A DNA stretch of 34,642 nucleotides, taken from Oceanospirillaceae bacterium (GTDB lineage Bacteria > Pseudomonadota > Gammaproteobacteria > Pseudomonadales > Balneatricaceae). The notes under the pieces are model-generated. The model made no database searches, had not been told where the DNA came from, and was given only the letters and a program-made list of their open reading frames with translations. Location of the stretch: assembly GCA_029938085.1 (NCBI GenBank), contig JAPYOS010000007.1, positions 89,376 through 124,017 on the forward strand, in the 5' to 3' direction. The translations under genes and the position numbers were made by a program. Positions 1 to 7,939 of the stretch are shown here, in pieces (position 1 is the first letter of the stretch; every line of letters begins with the position of its first letter).

Positions 1-56
1 TGGTTAGATGGTTAGATGGTTAGATGGTTAGATGGTTAGATGGTTAGATGGTTAGG
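1..56. repeat. 8-bp tandem repeat (TGGTTAGA)n
   Basis: Six perfect head-to-tail copies of TGGTTAGA, plus a seventh ending TGGTTAGG, run from the first base to position 56. The array is cut by the window edge, so the true copy number is unknown. The unit is 8 bp, not a multiple of three, so copy changes inside a coding region would shift frame. I see no ORF crossing it within the window, so it could equally be a non-coding microsatellite that alters promoter spacing for a gene to the left. Confidence 0.9.
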
Positions 57-77
57 CTACACGAACAGGGCATAGCT

Positions 78-257
78 CTATTTACACCTATAACTCACCA
101 TATCTACCGACATTACTTGCCCATTTCCACATTCTTTTACAGCGGCTACTCCATTAACATATACAGCCAGTGGAGGATAAGCTACGTAGACCGCCCCCGA
201 AAGGGCAAATACAACTAGCAAAGTCTTAACATAAATATGAGCATTTAATTTTTTCAA
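78..257 (-). CDS. putative small membrane or exported peptide (59 aa), TTG start
   Basis: I do not recognise this protein. Read on the minus strand from a TTG at 257, it gives 59 residues: a lysine-containing N-terminus (LKKLNAHIYVK), a hydrophobic stretch around residues 12-34 that could be a signal peptide or one membrane helix, then a short polar tail with two cysteines (KECGNGQ...SYRCK). The TTG overlaps the TGA stop of the small ORF upstream (TTGA), as in translationally coupled genes, but no good ribosome site lies just before it. The composition looks protein-like, yet length and start codon make this tentative. Confidence 0.3.
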   Translation of the reverse strand: MKKLNAHIYVKTLLVVFALSGAVYVAYPPLAVYVNGVAAVKECGNGQVMSVDMVSYRCK

Positions 258-376
258 GCGATTGAATAACCCAAGCCTGAATAACCTGGGGCACCCTCCT
301 CTTTAATTACACGAAAAGCCATTTGTACTGACAGATTTAACATTTTCAGAACCACCACAAATGCTAAACGAGGCAT
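254..376 (-). CDS. putative small peptide (40 aa)
   Basis: I do not recognise this ORF. It starts at an ATG at 376, just after an in-frame TAA, with a weak GTGGA-like ribosome site. It encodes 40 residues: a hydrophobic N-terminal half (MPRLAFVVVLKMLNL) and a Gly/Tyr-rich end (GAPGYSGLGYSIA). Its TGA overlaps the TTG of the next small ORF by the four bases TTGA, so the two could be coupled or be two parts of one frameshifted gene. A longer ORF in another frame (303-560) overlaps it. I prefer this one because of its sensible composition and the coupling, but confidence is low. Confidence 0.25.
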   Translation of the reverse strand: MPRLAFVVVLKMLNLSVQMAFRVIKEEGAPGYSGLGYSIA

Positions 377-597
377 ATAAAATCCACTTTACGATGCGTT
401 TTAGTATTAAACCACGGACAATACCCACTAGGGAATTAAAAATAGATCGATCCTGACGCCTTTGGTCCTCTGTATTCGGAAGGTTCAAGTATTGATATCC
501 GCATCTTGTTAGCCTACCCAAAACCTTTGTCGTCCGACAATGATGGGGCCTAGGCCGCAAAATTCAGTCAATCCATTACATCGGGGCACGGATCAAC

Positions 598-632
598 GGG
601 GTAAGCTATGGAGTCTGACCCCTTTGATTTCG
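598..632. repeat. possible REP-like palindromic element
   Basis: GGGGT (598-602) and ACCCC (618-622) can form a 5-bp stem. On the minus strand the segment reads AAAGGGGTCAGACTCC, resembling the GGGGTCAGA-type motifs often found near REP-associated tyrosine transposases in gammaproteobacteria. Only one copy is visible here and no transposase is present, so this rests on motif recall. Confidence 0.3.
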
Positions 633-690
633 TTTATCACGTTTGGGCTGGAAGCCAAATTCAGCTAAAGAACATTTTTTACATAGGGCT

Positions 691-719
691 GTGGCAAAAG
701 TCATTTTATATACTACAAT
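691..719 (+). promoter_or_regulatory. candidate sigma-70 promoter for the microcin precursor
   Basis: GTGGCA (691-696) and TACAAT (714-719) are separated by 17 bp, about 75 bp before the precursor start. The -10 matches 5 of 6 consensus bases and the -35 matches 4 of 6. The AT-rich surroundings make chance matches likely. Confidence 0.3.
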
Positions 720-793
720 TATATTCGAAGGTCGCAATTTTGCAGACTTTCTTAGTAGTAACATTCTAATATTAATTACATGGAGTTATTAAA

Positions 794-1003
794 ATGAATG
801 AATTAACAATGAATGAAATGCAGCAAGTTGGTGGGGGGCGTCTTCCTAAACACGCCGGTAATAGTCAAAAAAAAGAAAGTAAAGGCTTCCAGAACTCGAG
901 CATTTCTAGAGCTTGCTTTGGGGCCGCAGCCGTAGTGACAAGTGTAATGGGGCCTATAGGTTTAGGAATATCTGCGGTGCTTGCCGCTGTGTCCACCCAG
1001 TAA
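794..1003 (+). CDS. microcin/class II bacteriocin precursor with double-glycine leader
   Basis: This 69-residue peptide starts MNELTMNEMQQVGGG, a classic double-glycine leader of the type cut by C39-peptidase ABC exporters (compare the MRTLTLNELDSVSGG leader of microcin V). Cleavage after Gly14 would release a core of about 55 residues. The core has a Lys/Ser-rich basic first half (residues 16-40) and a hydrophobic, Gly/Ala-rich helix-like second half (42-66, GAAAVVTSVMGPIGLGISAV) that suits membrane insertion. There is a single cysteine (Cys41), so no internal disulfide. GGAG at 782-785 sits eight bases before the ATG. Immediately downstream are a probable immunity gene and a full secretion system with a matching peptidase domain. 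I do not recognise the core sequence itself. Confidence 0.8.
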   Translation: MNELTMNEMQQVGGGRLPKHAGNSQKKESKGFQNSSISRACFGAAAVVTSVMGPIGLGISAVLAAVSTQ

Positions 1004-1407: not shown

Positions 1408-2661
1408 ATGGAACAAGGACTGTTTCGTCAACAAGCCGTTAAAAAGCAACAGGTTCGCTTATATGGCCCGGTATTATTACGTCAACCTGTATCGTATTTA
1501 GTGGTTTTCTCTTGTTTATTTTTGTTTTCAATTCTAGCCTTTATTTTACTGTTCTTTGGTGAACTCGCCCGCAAGAAAACTGTATCTGGTTACTTAGTGC
1601 CCCAAGCAGGCCTACTAAAAGTGAAGTCTTCTCGAGCAGGCTATGTTAGTCAATCACTCGTTGTTCAAGGCGCTTTGGTGGCTAAAGATCAGCTTTTACT
1701 ATCACTACACGACCCTAATCAGCTTTTATCTGGCACTTCTGTGGGCGCTCAATTACTAGACAAACTTTCTGACCAAGAAGCTTTGCTACATCAGCGCCTT
1801 GCTGGCTTGGTGTCTATTAGCTTAAATCAAAACGCTGACATTGACGCCAAACTGACTAGCCTTGATTTAGAGCGCAAATCGCTGGTTTTGCAAGTGGGTA
1901 TTACCCAACAACGTTTGCAGCTTGCCAAGCATCAAGTAGAACGCATGGAGGCCTTGGCAAAAGCTCACGTTGCTGCACGGATTAAAGTAGACGACGCGCG
2001 CAACTTGTTGTTGCAACTTCAGTCAACACAAGCTGAATTCAAAAGGGCCGTACAAACTAACAAAAGCCAAATCACCCAATATAAACTACAACAACAACGC
2101 CAACAATTACAGGCTAGCAATGACCAAGCCCAATTGAGTTATAACCTGTTAGATATTGAACAAAGGCGTTTGCAACTACAAGGCGAACAACAGTCCCTCA
2201 TTAAAGCGCCACGGGACGGGGTGGTCACTCAAGTTTTAGTGAAAACCAATGAATTGGTTCAGCAAGGCCAAGTGGTGATGCATTTGATGCCCACAAATAG
2301 CTTGTTACTTGCACAGCTATTAGTGCCCACCCAAGCCATGGGCTTTATCACCGAAGGGCAAACAGTGAACATTCGTTATACTGCCTTTCCATACCAAAAA
2401 TTTGGCCTGTATAGCGGTGTGGTGTCACAAGTATCGCAAACTACACTCACCCCTAACGAAACTCGCGACCTACCCTTTCCTGTTCAAACTGCTGCCTACA
2501 AAGTGATGGTGAGGTTAGATACTCAATCTGTAGACGCTTACGGTAGATCAATGGCACTAAAACCTGGCATGCAGGTAAGCGTAGATATTCGCTTAGAAGA
2601 GCGTTCTTTGTGGGAGTGGTTGCTAGAACCCTTATTGAGTTTAAAAGGACGTTTTTCATGA
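1408..2661 (+). CDS. HlyD-family periplasmic adaptor of a microcin type I exporter
   Basis: This 417-residue protein belongs to the HlyD/CvaA membrane-fusion family, which links an inner-membrane ABC exporter to an outer-membrane channel. One membrane helix lies at about residues 29-50, after a short cytoplasmic N-terminus. A biotinyl-lipoyl-like half follows (KVKSSRAGYVSQSLVVQGALV). Next is a long Gln/Leu-rich coiled coil (about 120-265), then the second lipoyl half (IKAPRDGVVTQVLVKTNELV) and a beta-barrel region. The length is typical for CvaA-like adaptors. AGGGGA sits just before the ATG. Its TGA overlaps the ATG of the ABC exporter gene (ATGA), so the two are translationally coupled. A weak promoter-like pair (TTTATT, 17 bp, TATATT) lies just upstream. 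Confidence 0.92.
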   Translation: MEQGLFRQQAVKKQQVRLYGPVLLRQPVSYLVVFSCLFLFSILAFILLFFGELARKKTVSGYLVPQAGLLKVKSSRAGYVSQSLVVQGALVAKDQLLLSLHDPNQLLSGTSVGAQLLDKLSDQEALLHQRLAGLVSISLNQNADIDAKLTSLDLERKSLVLQVGITQQRLQLAKHQVERMEALAKAHVAARIKVDDARNLLLQLQSTQAEFKRAVQTNKSQITQYKLQQQRQQLQASNDQAQLSYNLLDIEQRRLQLQGEQQSLIKAPRDGVVTQVLVKTNELVQQGQVVMHLMPTNSLLLAQLLVPTQAMGFITEGQTVNIRYTAFPYQKFGLYSGVVSQVSQTTLTPNETRDLPFPVQTAAYKVMVRLDTQSVDAYGRSMALKPGMQVSVDIRLEERSLWEWLLEPLLSLKGRFS

Positions 2662-4766
2662 GCCAGGTAGATACCAGTAATCTTGTTAATTCGGGGGGTC
2701 TCGGTTTAAGCGCCAAACTACCGGTGATTTTACAGGCCGAGGCTTCGGAATGTGGTTTGGCCTGTTTGGCCATGATTGCAGGTTACCATGGTTTTGAAAC
2801 GGACTTAAATCAGCTCAGGCGGCGTTTCTCCATGTCCATGCACGGCGTCAACCTGAAGCAATTGCGGGATATGGCCACCCGCATGCACCTCAATGGCCGC
2901 GCCTTACAGTTGGAAATAGAACACCTTAAAGACCTGCAATTACCCTGTATATTGCATTGGGATATGAACCATTTTGTGGTGCTTAAGTCTGTGCGCAAGG
3001 GTCGTATTACCATCCATGACCCAGACCAAGGCGTACGCCATTTTAACCAGGCGGAGTTTGCAGAACATTTTACCGGCATTGCCATGGAGCTCACACCCAC
3101 CCAAGCGTTTAGCGTTAAGTCTGACAAACAATCGATTAGCCTTACCAGCTTGTGGTCTAAGTCGTCTGGTATTGGCCGTAGTTTGTTGGTGATCTTGGGT
3201 TTATCCATTCTATTGCAGGTTTTTGGCATTGCTGCGCCCTTTTATATGCAAGTGGTGGTGGATGACGTGGTGCAACGGGCCGATGTGGATTTGTTATTGG
3301 TGCTGGCCTTGGGGTTTGGTTTATTAATGATTATGGAAACCTTAACCCAAGGTTTACGTGGCTTATTGATTTTGCATCTAGCCAGCCATTTAAGTTTGCA
3401 AATGGCCAACAACCTGTTTCGCCATTTGATTCGTTTGCCTTTGCAGTTCTTTGAAAAACGTCACATGGGCAACATATTGTCTCGTTTTGGCTCCCTTGAA
3501 CAAGTACGAGAGCTTATTTCTAGTGGTTTAGTGGCCGCCGTGGTGGATGGTATTATGGCCATCATCACCTTAATGATTATGTTTATTTATAGCGTAAAAC
3601 TAGCATTAGTAGTGATTGGTGTAACTGTGCTTTATTTTTTACTACGTTTAGCTTTATATCGCCCGTTTCGCACCCGTACAGAAGAAAGTTTGGTGGCCGA
3701 TGCCAAACAACAATCCCACTTTATGGAAAGCATTAGAGCTATTCAAAGCATTAAAGTGTTTCAGCAAGAAAACGAACGTCACAGCCGCTGGCAAAATCAT
3801 TATGCCGATACCATTAACACCGGCATTCGTATAGGCCACTGGAACATTGGTTACACCACTCTTAACCAGTTGTTATTTGGTGTAGAGAACATCGTTATCA
3901 TCTACTTAGCGGCCAACGCCGTGATTGATTCGGTGATCTCGTTAGGTATGTTGTATGCCTTTATGAGTTATAAGCAGCGCTTTATCAGCAGTATGGATTC
4001 GTTTATCACCCAAGTTATTGAATTTAAAATGCTAGGTCTACATCTTGAGCGGCTTAGCGACATTGTATTAGCTAAGGCCGAAGAAGACCCAGAAACTGGG
4101 TTTGCTGTTGTTGATGGCAACCAACTTCAGTTACAAGGCTATTTTAAAGTGGAAAATGCTAGCTTTCGTTATTCTGAAGCCACCGAGCCCGTATTTAGCC
4201 AACTCAACTTCGACATTGCCAGCGGTGAATCAGTGGCTTTAGTCGGCCCTTCGGGTTGTGGCAAAACCACACTGGTTAAATGCCTTATGGGGTTATTGCC
4301 TTTAGACGAAGGCCAAATCTATATTGACGATAAACCCATAGAGCAATCCACGCTATTTAGAGGCCGTATAGGGGCGGTAATGCAAGACGACCAACTAGTG
4401 TCTGGCTCTTTGGCAGACAACATCAGTTGTTTTGACCCAATTATAGATGAAGCTCGGATTGCTCAAAGTGCCGCCATGGCTAACATTCACGATGACATTA
4501 TGGCGATGCCCATGAACTACAACACCTTGGTAGGCGACATGGGGGCATCTTTGTCTGGCGGTCAAAAACAACGTGTATTGTTGGCAAGAGCGCTCTATCG
4601 CAAACCGGACGTGCTGTTCTTAGACGAAGCCACCAGCCATTTAGACATTGCCGGAGAATCCATTGTTAACGAACATATAAAACAACTTAAGATCACCCGT
4701 ATTATGGTGGCCCACAGGCCAGAAACGATTGCTACGGCGGATAGGGTGATTGACATAGGACGTTAG
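2658..4766 (+). CDS. peptidase C39 ABC transporter, microcin leader-cleaving exporter (CvaB-like)
   Basis: This 702-residue inner-membrane protein should cut the double-glycine leader from the precursor at 794 and pump out the core using ATP. The N-terminal C39 peptidase has its oxyanion glutamine (QAEASECG) and the triad Cys32 (ECGLAC), His105 (NHFVVL) and Asp121 (HDPDQG). A six-helix membrane domain spans roughly 170-470. The nucleotide-binding domain has Walker A GPSGCGKTT (from 530), signature LSGGQKQR (632), Walker B VLFLDEA (652) and an H-loop (VAHRPE). All catalytic residues are present. I chose the ATG at 2658, which overlaps the adaptor stop and has AAGGA upstream. An earlier in-frame ATG at 2610 lies inside the adaptor gene and would add a meaningless extension. 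Confidence 0.94.
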   Translation: MSQVDTSNLVNSGGLGLSAKLPVILQAEASECGLACLAMIAGYHGFETDLNQLRRRFSMSMHGVNLKQLRDMATRMHLNGRALQLEIEHLKDLQLPCILHWDMNHFVVLKSVRKGRITIHDPDQGVRHFNQAEFAEHFTGIAMELTPTQAFSVKSDKQSISLTSLWSKSSGIGRSLLVILGLSILLQVFGIAAPFYMQVVVDDVVQRADVDLLLVLALGFGLLMIMETLTQGLRGLLILHLASHLSLQMANNLFRHLIRLPLQFFEKRHMGNILSRFGSLEQVRELISSGLVAAVVDGIMAIITLMIMFIYSVKLALVVIGVTVLYFLLRLALYRPFRTRTEESLVADAKQQSHFMESIRAIQSIKVFQQENERHSRWQNHYADTINTGIRIGHWNIGYTTLNQLLFGVENIVIIYLAANAVIDSVISLGMLYAFMSYKQRFISSMDSFITQVIEFKMLGLHLERLSDIVLAKAEEDPETGFAVVDGNQLQLQGYFKVENASFRYSEATEPVFSQLNFDIASGESVALVGPSGCGKTTLVKCLMGLLPLDEGQIYIDDKPIEQSTLFRGRIGAVMQDDQLVSGSLADNISCFDPIIDEARIAQSAAMANIHDDIMAMPMNYNTLVGDMGASLSGGQKQRVLLARALYRKPDVLFLDEATSHLDIAGESIVNEHIKQLKITRIMVAHRPETIATADRVIDIGR

Positions 4767-4857: not shown

Positions 4858-6126
4858 TTGGCCTATTCACCGCGTCTTGCCGCCCTTTTCGTCACTCTTA
4901 TTGCCACCAGCGGCGTCCAAGCCAGCCAACTGCAAGACCTATATCAACAAGCCCAAGCGAATGACGCAAGCTATTTGGCCGCACAACATAGCCTCAATGC
5001 TAAGCTACAGATCATTCCTCAAGCCCAAAGTGCGCTCATGCCTCAGGTCAGTGCCAACTTTAACCAAAGCCTGCCATTGGACGCCCGTGCAGACAGCCAC
5101 AACTATAGCGTACAAATTGCCCTACCGTTAAGGTTGGATGCCTATTACGGTATGAAAGTTGCCCAACAAAGTGCGGCAAGTGCCCGCACCAGTTTTGAAA
5201 AATCTGAGCAAAACCTTATTTTTTCGGTGATAGAACGTTATTTTGCCGTGTTAAAACAGCAACGCCAACTCACCTCTAGCCAAGCAGAGCTAAAAGCCAT
5301 TCAACAACGGCTCAAACAAACCCAGCAACAAGTAGACGTGGGTTTAGCCAGCAACATACAGTTGCAAGACATGCAAGCCAACGTACAGCAGCTTCAGGTC
5401 GCCTTGCTGCAGGTACAGCAGAACCTAAACCTAGCGCGCGCAGACGTAGAAAACCTGACCAACCAACCGCTGGCTGAGACACTGGCTAACTTATCCGCAG
5501 ATTTTGGCCCACACCTTATTGATAATCAAAACTTACAAGCATGGTTTCAACTGGCCAATACCAATAACCTAGACATTGTTAGCAATGGCTTTGGCACCCT
5601 GCAGGCCTACCACAACTACCAAGCCAAGGACGTTGGACTGTATCCCAAAGCCACCATAAGCTTAGCGCAAGCCTTTAACAGCGCCCTGCCAACTAAAGAC
5701 TCTACCAGTTTTAGCATTGCGGTTTCTGGCACCTTGTACGATGGTGGTTTAAATAAAGCCCAAACCATGGAAGCGCAAGAAAATTGGCATGCCAGCCAAC
5801 AACAAGGCGCTGCAATACAGCGAGCCACGCATCATCAAGTCAGGCGCTGGCACCAAGCCTTAGAAACCAACCGCCAACAAATTCAAGCCTACACTCAGCT
5901 ATTAGCTTCTGTGCAGTCATCTTTGTCTGGCAAGACTAAAGAGTATGAACTGGGTTTACGGGACGTTAGCGACCTGTTAGATGCTGAGAAACTGGTATTT
6001 TCAGCCCAAAGAAATTTAGCCAACGCCCGCTTGGACTTAGTATTGAACCAACTCCGTTTGAAGCAAGTGAGTGGTGTATTAAGCAGCGATGACTTGGTGC
6101 AGCTCGATAGCTGGCTTAACCAATAG
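4858..6126 (+). CDS. TolC-family outer-membrane channel of the microcin exporter
   Basis: This 422-residue protein is a TolC-type outer-membrane efflux protein, with the repeated Gln/Leu/Ala-rich helices that form the periplasmic tunnel (for example LQDLYQQAQANDASYLAA near residue 25, and KEYELGLRDVSDLLDAEKLV near the C-terminus). A signal peptide covers the first 22 residues, ending SGVQA before SQLQ. The start is TTG, supported by AAGGA six bases upstream and by the signal peptide beginning directly there. It lies 91 bp after the ABC exporter on the same strand and completes the three-part secretion system. Its last 11 bases overlap the end of the convergent ATPase gene. Confidence 0.9.
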   Translation: MAYSPRLAALFVTLIATSGVQASQLQDLYQQAQANDASYLAAQHSLNAKLQIIPQAQSALMPQVSANFNQSLPLDARADSHNYSVQIALPLRLDAYYGMKVAQQSAASARTSFEKSEQNLIFSVIERYFAVLKQQRQLTSSQAELKAIQQRLKQTQQQVDVGLASNIQLQDMQANVQQLQVALLQVQQNLNLARADVENLTNQPLAETLANLSADFGPHLIDNQNLQAWFQLANTNNLDIVSNGFGTLQAYHNYQAKDVGLYPKATISLAQAFNSALPTKDSTSFSIAVSGTLYDGGLNKAQTMEAQENWHASQQQGAAIQRATHHQVRRWHQALETNRQQIQAYTQLLASVQSSLSGKTKEYELGLRDVSDLLDAEKLVFSAQRNLANARLDLVLNQLRLKQVSGVLSSDDLVQLDSWLNQ

Positions 6127-7339
6127 CCGCAATCAGCTGGGCCACATCGGCCTGTGGGTTTTGCTCACTAACGGCGAGTAAATCGAGCATGGTTTTTATC
6201 GCCAGGCGTGGATTCAAAAAGTACTGATTGCCATACACAGTACGGCACTGAAGCAACAGTGCCCACAGCTCCATGTCATCTATTAAGTAATCTTTAGCAT
6301 TGCCGTAAGCCTGCAGATCTCGCAGCTTGTGGAGCAGATCATCCATCTCCATCTCTTGCAAAGGCTGCAATTCGATAACCGGGCCCGACACGTCTTTTAA
6401 GCCGTTTTTTGCCATCACGTTAAGCGCCAATCGACTCTTCAAGGCGGGCATACTAAACAGACCTTTTTTCTCGTCGTAAACAAACTCTGGGGTTCCCAAA
6501 AACACAAACCCCATACCATGCACCTGCCCTTGAAGGCAGTCATTTACAATATTTAAAATTTCATTAAAATTGTTAATGCGCGACTGCTTATGGCTCAGTT
6601 CATGTAGCGCCACCATTTCGTCTAGACAAATAAGTAGCCCAGAATAACCTGCCATGCGCACAAACTGACAAAGCATTTTTAAGCCGCTAAAAAAGTTACG
6701 GTAATCAATAATACTACGCACGCCTAACGCCGCCTTTGCATCAGCCAGACTACTAAACTCGCCTCTGAGCCAACGTAAGGCTGTACTTTTTAAGCCATCA
6801 TCTTGATTTTCGAGCCCTAACCAATAGCGTTGAATCACTTTGATAAAATCAAAGCCGCCGGCTAACTCTTCAAAGTCGCGTAATCGATGGGCAATATGTT
6901 GCTCTGGCCCCACGTTACTGACATGAGCTTCACGTAACGTGGTTAAAATAAAACGCTCTACAATATTCACCAAAGCCGTACCGTCTGGCCTAGTCTTGGT
7001 ACTAAAGGATCGCACTAAAGCCGAGTAGAGGTTACGTGTTTCCCCTGTGCGGGCTTGTAGGCGCTTGTCTGGTGACAATGCTGCGCTAGCCACCACCAGG
7101 CCTTGCTTAATACCCTGCTGGCGTGTCAATTCACCAATGAAGGTCTTTCCCGTACCATAGGCACCAGTGACAAAACGCACACTAGAACCGCCCTTACTGA
7201 TGTGCAATATGTCTTTAGCCAAGGTCGCTTGCTCGCCAGCCCGACCCACTTGGATCAAATCGATATGATCAGCTGGCACAACACCCGCTCTAAGGGATTT
7301 GAGTACCTGATCACTTTGCATGGTCGAAACTTGGGTCAT
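6116..7339 (-). CDS. orphan P-loop ATPase of the BrxD/DUF2791 type
   Basis: This 407-residue protein looks like the ATP-binding proteins of the DUF2791/BrxD group, known from BREX phage-defence loci and TerB-associated loci. Visible features are a Walker A motif TGAYGTGKT (residues 58-66), a family-typical segment NFFSGLKMLCQFVRMAGYSG, a Walker B LLICLDE (235-241) and a sensor-like FLGTPEF. No other BREX, Ter or DISARM gene is in the window. Instead it is the last gene of the trmA-mrp-dcd run, 15 bp after dcd. The start has a poor ribosome site (GAGCC before ATG). The biological role is unknown. It may be a stand-alone housekeeping paralogue or a captured defence gene. The family call is from motif pattern and should be confirmed by a profile search. 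Confidence 0.75.
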   Translation of the reverse strand: MTQVSTMQSDQVLKSLRAGVVPADHIDLIQVGRAGEQATLAKDILHISKGGSSVRFVTGAYGTGKTFIGELTRQQGIKQGLVVASAALSPDKRLQARTGETRNLYSALVRSFSTKTRPDGTALVNIVERFILTTLREAHVSNVGPEQHIAHRLRDFEELAGGFDFIKVIQRYWLGLENQDDGLKSTALRWLRGEFSSLADAKAALGVRSIIDYRNFFSGLKMLCQFVRMAGYSGLLICLDEMVALHELSHKQSRINNFNEILNIVNDCLQGQVHGMGFVFLGTPEFVYDEKKGLFSMPALKSRLALNVMAKNGLKDVSGPVIELQPLQEMEMDDLLHKLRDLQAYGNAKDYLIDDMELWALLLQCRTVYGNQYFLNPRLAIKTMLDLLAVSEQNPQADVAQLIAAIG

Positions 7340-7354: not shown

Positions 7355-7939
7355 TTAACTGTCTTGGTCTATACGGCTAGCAACAGCGCTACGCTGGTTT
7401 TTGTACTTGGCATCAACCCGCTTGTTGTAAGGTCGTAATGCGGGGCTAGATAGGGTTTCAAAGTTAATCGCGCCAATGGTCATCTTGGGCTTTAAGGCCA
7501 ACGGTAACTTACCACTATTAAAACACTCTAACACTATAGCACCACTCCAACCCGGATCGATCCGGTGAGCAGTGACATGCACCATCAACCCAAGCCGGGC
7601 TAAGGACGAGCGGCCGTCGAGCCAGCCCACATGATCATCCGGTATAGTCACCGACTCCAAGGTAACCGCTAGGGCGAGTTCTCCTGGATGTAAAAAGAAG
7701 CTCTCACCTTCGGCGATAGTGATTTCATCACTCATAATCGCTTCAAGCGTATCGTTAATTTCCTCACGACTAGCGCTGACGTCCACAAAAGGCCGTGCAT
7801 GGTCTTTAAATACACGAAAACTGTTACCCAAGCGTAAATCTACGCTCACACCGGTAATAACGCTATTGTCCGGGCGCGGATCGATGGCGAGTTTACCGCT
7901 GTCTAAGGCGGCGATGATGTCTTTGTCACTGAGTCGCAT
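7355..7939 (-). CDS. dcd: dCTP deaminase
   Basis: Dcd converts dCTP to dUTP, feeding thymidylate synthesis. The 194-residue protein matches the family length (193 in E. coli). It has the core motif [20 protein letters not shown], followed by [10 protein letters not shown] with the catalytic glutamate at residue 138, the same position as in E. coli. The start MRLSDKDI is also the canonical one. It sits 6 bp after mrp and 15 bp before the orphan ATPase, so all are probably co-transcribed. Nothing is missing or unusual in the enzyme. Confidence 0.97.

Follow-up and report, generated by a model that had tools for sequence, protein, structure and literature searches.

A candidate class II microcin cassette beside native tolC in an Oceanospirillaceae bacterium, and a second precursor with a closely matching upstream region and leader

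The subject of this work is a short gene that encodes a candidate class II microcin, together with the genes that follow it, in an Oceanospirillaceae bacterium (GenBank assembly GCA_029938085.1). It lies near the start of a stretch of 34,642 nucleotides (contig JAPYOS010000007.1, positions 89,376 to 124,017 of the forward strand), which was analysed as a whole and is called the window; coordinates refer to it unless another contig or locus is named. The gene order is precursor, stem-loop, a 62-amino-acid (aa) open reading frame (ORF), an HlyD-type adaptor, a C39 ATP-binding cassette (ABC) exporter and tolC, with the following features:

794-1003, + strand: microcin precursor ORF, ATG to TAA, 69 aa, with GGAG directly 5' of the start
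794-838, + strand: 15-residue double-glycine leader MNELTMNEMQQVGGG, following the -4/-7/-12 rule; 39/45 bases are the same in a second precursor
839-1003, + strand: 54-aa core and stop; cationic, Ser-rich N-terminal half and hydrophobic C-terminal half with Gly-Pro
1018-1063, + strand: strong stem-loop with 21-nt arms (-28 kcal/mol, z -7.74, 0/200 shuffles as low)
1086-1274, + strand: putative immunity protein, 62 aa, with one to two hydrophobic segments
1408-2661, + strand: HlyD/CvaA-type membrane fusion protein, 417 aa (Pfam HlyD_3, 2.1e-18; TIGR01843, 8.8e-41, below its cut-off)
2658-4766, + strand: C39 peptidase ABC exporter, 702 aa (Pfam Peptidase_C39, 2.1e-38; ABC_membrane; ABC_tran)
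4858-6126, + strand: native tolC (Pfam OEP, 2.7e-38; TIGR01844, 8.8e-55, below its cut-off)

The precursor and the genes of its cassette

The double-glycine rule, as given in PMC11494933, asks for positions -4, -7 and -12 relative to the cleavage site to be hydrophobic. A cut after Gly15 brings V12, M9 and L4 to these positions, whereas a cut after Gly14 would bring Q11, E8 and E3 there. Moreover, the sister precursor from the same genome reads MNELTINEMQQVSGG, and its VSGG aligns with VGGG of the window leader. Because the hydrophobic rule fits Gly15 only and the alignment agrees, the leader is taken to be 15 residues long rather than 14, and cleavage is predicted after Gly15. The original prediction, made from the sequence alone, had called the leader canonical, and in this it stands; its 14-residue length and the cleavage after Gly14 are replaced, and the core of about 55 residues becomes one of 54.

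The predicted mature core has a mass of 5429.2 Da, a net charge of about +4.8, one Cys and one hydrophobic segment, and the precursor ends in ...AVLAAVSTQ. Its earlier description as half basic and Ser-rich and half hydrophobic, with one cysteine, agrees with the counts, as Lys, Arg and Ser total 11 in core residues 1-24 and 3 in the last 30. Glycine accounts for 9/69 residues of the precursor (13%) and 6/54 of the core (11%). An AlphaFold model of the precursor, of low confidence (mean predicted local distance difference test score, pLDDT, 56), shows one helix at precursor residues 37-51 and another at 53-67, around the Gly-Pro; this two-helix model would suit a membrane-inserting hairpin and proves nothing.

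Leader, exporter and putative immunity gene had been proposed to form one short cassette, and the HlyD-type gene, the C39 ABC gene and the membrane ORF are indeed all present at the coordinates listed. The exporter carries the catalytic triad C32/H105/D121, invariant in 7/7 aligned exporters and identical in residue numbers to the triad reported for CvaB (PMC9746304), and its top PDB sequence match is 4ry2, an ABC-type bacteriocin transporter (5e-96). The membrane ORF has alternative in-frame starts at 1056 (ATG, 72 aa) and 1038 (TTG, 78 aa). The stem-loop at 1018-1063, between precursor and membrane ORF, is very stable and has no T run after it, and no further copy was seen among the matches examined in the own genome; it could determine how much microcin is made relative to immunity protein.

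The leader pattern was compared with chance by means of a strict definition (ATG with ribosome-binding site, 25-120 aa) that was written after the window had been seen. It has 35 matches, in 25 of 80 exporter loci (1.27 Mb), which are not independent, many being from Pseudoalteromonas, and none in 12.7 Mb of triplet-shuffled sequence or in 97.6 kb of native control DNA. Within the locus DNA, 55/80 loci have no precursor under the strict pattern, and a looser one found some more. A hydrophobic ORF of 40-260 aa lies downstream of 25/35 such precursors, as against 640/5000 random positions.

A second precursor and the borders of the island

The own genome (G000) holds a second precursor on another contig, C41, and the comparison of the two, together with that of a genome of the same genus (G011), adds the following features:

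L005:7624-7827 (contig C41): second precursor, 67 aa
Contig C41: membrane ORF of the second cassette, 119 aa, with four hydrophobic segments
631-793, + strand: upstream (promoter) half of the promoter-leader module, 136/166 aligned columns the same as on C41
1286-1333, + strand: block A, 48 bp, 94% identical to L005:7407-7453
41-630, + strand: left part of the putatively acquired island, adjoining DUF3108, with no clear gene (592-bp G011 alignment, 96%)
611-627, no strand assigned: 17-bp element GAGTCTGACCCCTTTGA at the left payload border, found twice in the genome, once exactly and once with 1 mismatch

A blastn block joins window 631-837 to C41 at 86% identity, with 30/30 bases the same at 721-750, and stops one base short of the leader end. 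Beyond it the cores share 64/166 columns, a score that 260/300 codon shuffles equal or exceed. By sequence, then, the two precursors have a shared promoter and leader, unrelated cores and different membrane ORFs. Around the second precursor, the ORFs of L005 4000-12000 include no exporter gene, and at E<=1e-60 a single exporter is matched in the own genome; the second payload very likely uses the exporter of the window cassette. At E<=0.001 the genome contains just one further long match, block A, which lies downstream of the membrane ORF in the window and directly upstream of the promoter-leader module on C41. Such a placement would follow from a tandem array that broke apart afterwards.

The second cassette (L005:7290-8831) sits between a lone repeat resembling those of clustered regularly interspaced short palindromic repeats (CRISPR) and a mini-array of four repeats and three spacers; we take the repeats to resemble those of type I-F. 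The equivalent G011 site, between the genes for a xerD-like integrase and ribosomal L19, has a single such repeat, and G000 is longer there by 1513 bp. Cas1 was not found in the own genome. The second spacer of the mini-array (L005:8725-8738) has a 14-nt exact match to the second core gene (7795-7808; blastn E 1.0), which may be due to chance.

On the left, window 41-630 aligns over 592 bp (96% identity) with G011 contig C42, downstream of its DUF3108 gene. Since this identity stops at 630 and the block shared with C41 starts at 631, two independent comparisons place the left payload border at 631. The element GAGTCTGACCCCTTTGA has two copies beside the G011 microcin and one variant on C42; its candidacy as a genome-wide repeat was dropped, with two sites at <=2 mismatches against one for a reversed control. 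At its end the DUF3108 gene carries tandem copies of an 8-bp unit, TGGTTAGA (window 1-55; L006:9222-9376). They border an assembly gap of 100 N immediately to the left of the window, and G011 shows no such expansion at this place.

In the relatives G004, G005, G006 and G008 the order is purM-purN-DUF3108-tolC-BrxC-dcd-mrp, and the interval from DUF3108 to tolC gives no match to HlyD or ABC. This 4/4 count covers the relatives with the DUF3108-tolC interval on one contig; the G014 contig lacks DUF3108, and the site was not read in the other eight genus genomes, which have no BrxC match at E<=1e-40. In G000 the end of the ABC gene directly precedes the conserved pre-tolC sequence, and G011 shows the same arrangement on the tolC side. 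As the interval is empty in the four relatives and filled in G000 and G011, the exporter would have been inserted beside native tolC in the G000/G011 line or lost elsewhere, insertion being the simpler account. The view of tolC as a dedicated part of the cassette was given up, the gene being native and present in those four relatives with no exporter. The names DUF3108, purM (AIRS), purN (formyl transferase), dcd, mrp (NUBPL type), xerD-like integrase, uvrB and ribosomal L19 were checked against Pfam; two further genes are, by their sequences, presumably metG and trmA.

The exporter occurs in 2/15 genomes of the genus, some of them incomplete, and in at least 31/293 genomes of the order at E<=1e-130, a count for which three candidates were scored per genome and which misses the cut G011 gene. 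Its end is 99% identical between G000 and G011 over 115 aa. The contig of the G011 microcin also carries uvrB, and the HlyD start there is identical at 89/109 bases, as against 335/348 for the ABC end. A right payload border proposed from G011 was withdrawn on these grounds, namely the uvrB contig and the greater divergence of the HlyD start.

Beyond tolC, a BrxC/BrxD-type ATP-binding gene (6116-7339, - strand; Pfam 9.6e-120) is found in 7/15 genus genomes and adjoins dcd and mrp in all seven. Because of this constant position, it seems to be resident rather than to belong to a bacteriophage exclusion (BREX) island.

Relatives of the precursor and proposed exchange of its core

The core had been described as unrecognised, and searches of Pfam, NCBIfam, PHROGs, PDB sequences, plasmids and phages returned no close match. 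With Pfam Bacteriocin_IIc (PF10439) the score is 14.6 bits, below the gathering cut-off of 27.1; the Pfam model of microcin V (MccV) has no match to the window precursor at E<=1 and reaches 0.068 with the sister precursor. Among 390 genomes of the order, whole-precursor matches are confined to G000 and G011, the two sequences from which the search model was built. Matches at E<=0.1 occur in 62/390 genomes, most of the weaker ones not having been inspected singly. Near whole-length matches in G222, G281, G300 and G398 (4.5e-4 to 1.9e-3) were rejected, as they lie in open frames of 287-321 aa, and some others (G049, G037, G111, G192 and G412) are leader-only or belong to other double-glycine precursors. 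The original prediction had also looked to homologues beside exporters, and the related G011 precursor, 42% identical over its full length, does adjoin the start of an HlyD-type gene and a 69-aa membrane ORF. Six IMG/VR viral contigs (L171-L176) carry a related C39 exporter with a near-identical double-glycine precursor (MKELNDIEVTCVSGG...) upstream; the scan of viral contigs with the exporter alignment gave these 6 loci, all with one same precursor, different from that of the window.

The relation between the two precursors of the own genome recurs elsewhere. In seven pairs of precursors that share upstream DNA, upstream identity is 0.84-0.99, six show no residual similarity of the cores, and the homology breaks within 5 nt of the leader end in 6/7. 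The break at the junction of leader and core is seen again in two Rheinheimera genomes and in G049, where the query leader lies at 301-345 and the break falls at +4. We infer recombination as the cause of the core swap. Rapid divergence of a duplicated gene under selection could also make cores differ, but it would have to leave upstream DNA 0.84-0.99 identical while erasing core similarity in six of the seven pairs, and to respect a boundary within 5 nt of the leader end in as many, and it is considered unlikely.

Two side observations concern the surroundings of such precursors. In G049, the ORF at L031:812-1477 starts, to judge by eye, like an HlyD-type adaptor and continues as the terminal part of an ABC exporter (Pfam ABC_tran, 3e-15). 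It would seem to be what a deletion left behind, and the precursor next to it looks intact. In Alishewanella aestuarii, a 650-bp unit made up of upstream DNA, leader and core start is duplicated (L150:5086-5738 and 6224-6879), and the second copy contains an ORF (6276-6737) that encodes a piece of HlyD (Pfam HlyD_3, 2.4e-10), which suggests that payloads were multiplied along with a piece of the exporter.

Core swapping behind a constant part is already known for polymorphic toxins, which, as described in PMC3482391, have a constant N-terminal trafficking part and a C-terminal toxin that is swapped together with its immunity gene. Those are large multidomain proteins, whereas the constant part here is a 15-aa leader and a promoter; the payload pattern resembles theirs, the multidomain architecture is lacking, and the locus is not classed as a member. 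It stands at about even chances that the class II microcins of these Gammaproteobacteria are miniature polymorphic-toxin systems, in which promoter and 15-codon leader would anchor recombination and core-immunity payloads would be swapped, some of them distant from the exporter and using it in trans. No description of such promoter-leader-anchored swapping in class II microcins was noticed in searches of an open-licence library, subscription papers being mostly uncovered.

Class, proposed mechanism and alternative explanations

The best-supported reading of the locus is the one first proposed, a class II microcin with an unrecognised core, given the lack of a close match and the related precursor beside an HlyD-type start. 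Taken as a whole, it is quite probably a class II (IIa-like) microcin island, in which one constant exporter beside native tolC would serve exchangeable core-immunity payloads behind a fixed promoter-leader unit, with antibacterial activity predicted. The leader, of 15 aa, falls within the 15-18 aa of the double-glycine signal with hydrophobic -4, -7 and -12; the exporter is of C39 type with Cys32, His105 and Asp121; a membrane fusion protein is nearby and TolC is in the genome; the core of 5.43 kDa fits a size of about 5-10 kDa; and for the adjacent membrane immunity protein of 51-216 aa there is the 62-aa hydrophobic ORF, in a putative role. The Gly/Ser-rich C-terminal motif of class IIb (siderophore) microcins is absent, as are siderophore-modification genes between precursor and tolC, the rest of the genome not having been searched for them.

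From these parts we infer export, cleavage, killing and immunity. The precursor would be made in the cytosol, where the C39 domain of the ABC exporter would recognise the 15-aa leader and cut after Gly15, and the 54-aa cationic peptide would exit via ABC, HlyD and TolC. It probably enters related Gram-negative cells via an outer-membrane receptor, whereupon its hydrophobic C-terminal half would insert in the inner membrane and cause depolarisation, while the 62-aa membrane protein would shield the producer. The steps of target entry, membrane insertion and immunity are modelled on known class II microcins as outlined in PMC10233263, and in the MccV system, according to PMC10231218, the leader alone appears enough for export of varied cargo.

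Several points weigh against this reading. The 62-aa ORF has no family match above chance in Pfam, NCBIfam and further searches, the stem-loop stands between it and the precursor, and promoter-like sites are not above chance (3 found, 2.9 expected). The core, at 54 aa, falls short of the range of 60-90 aa that PMC10233263 reports for the ten class II microcins characterised, and the glycine content of precursor and core is at or just under the 12-26% given for class II microcin sequences in PMC11494933. As to G011, BLASTP of the two cores alone gives no alignment, the score of their alignment is reached by 109/5000 and 70/5000 shuffles that keep the composition of each half, so that homology of the cores is suggestive at most, the membrane ORFs match only trivially, and the G011 microcin may belong to a second exporter copy.

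The cassette can also be read in other ways. The product could be a secreted double-glycine peptide that is not a bacteriocin, for instance a signal or biofilm peptide, which uses the same export machinery. Small double-glycine-motif proteins do serve biofilm development in a cyanobacterium (PMC4997328), and killing by the peptide is here a prediction; yet a small membrane ORF is adjacent, the core is hydrophobic, and precursors 42% identical between G000 and G011, set against an exporter end 99% identical over 115 aa, are more in keeping with an arms race of toxin and immunity than with a conserved signal, which makes such a role improbable. The two precursors of the own genome might instead supply one half each of a two-peptide bacteriocin, with near-identical promoters driving their co-expression and a single exporter for both, as their near-identical upstream DNA and leaders and their short, cationic and hydrophobic cores would allow. 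Their membrane ORFs are separate (62 and 119 aa), they lie on different contigs and the C41 payload is absent at the equivalent G011 site, and this arrangement is held to be distinctly unlikely.

That the cassette is decayed or silent is very improbable: the octamer repeat expansion and the 100-N assembly gap just left of the window, as well as the promoter scan, would agree with decay, but all frames are intact, the catalytic residues of the exporter are kept and the promoter-leader block is conserved between two copies.

The class II microcin cassette proposed here can be placed among described systems. It has the five-part layout of the microcin V system of E. coli (CvaC, Cvi, CvaB, CvaA and TolC; PMC10233263), with the host tolC used, and its leader has 8/15 residues in common with the leader CvaC15 (M1, L4, T5, N7, E8, V12, G14 and G15; PMC10231218). 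On the other hand, its core is unrelated to that of microcin V, and its exporter is set among housekeeping genes, immediately before tolC. McbABCI of Moraxella catarrhalis is likewise a double-glycine bacteriocin system outside Enterobacterales, with a membrane fusion protein, a C39 ABC exporter and a 74-aa immunity factor (PMC2761928); by description, not by sequence, it differs in gene order, its exporter genes lying ahead of the precursor and its immunity ORF overlapping the latter, while in the window precursor and membrane ORF come first, with the stem-loop between them. The pneumococcal blp locus has a variable bacteriocin-immunity array and a transporter of its own; unlike the present locus, it is Gram-positive, pheromone-regulated and without an outer membrane channel (PMC6422914). 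Prochlorosins also have a conserved leader that ends in Gly-Gly, a poorly conserved core, tandem copies and suspected recombination, but their leader is long and of Nif11 type, their core is enzyme-modified and their biological function is given as unknown (PMC10783134).

Ten class II microcins had been characterised by 2024 (PMC9746304, PMC11494933), and further candidates have been tested since (PMC13101503, PMC13174018). The core found here would add a new sequence type to this class. The conservation of promoter and leader suggests a specific way, open to experiment, in which the repertoires of microcins may change. Moreover, conserved upstream-leader DNA may serve as a search handle, which finds payloads distant from exporters that would be missed by searches requiring an exporter nearby.
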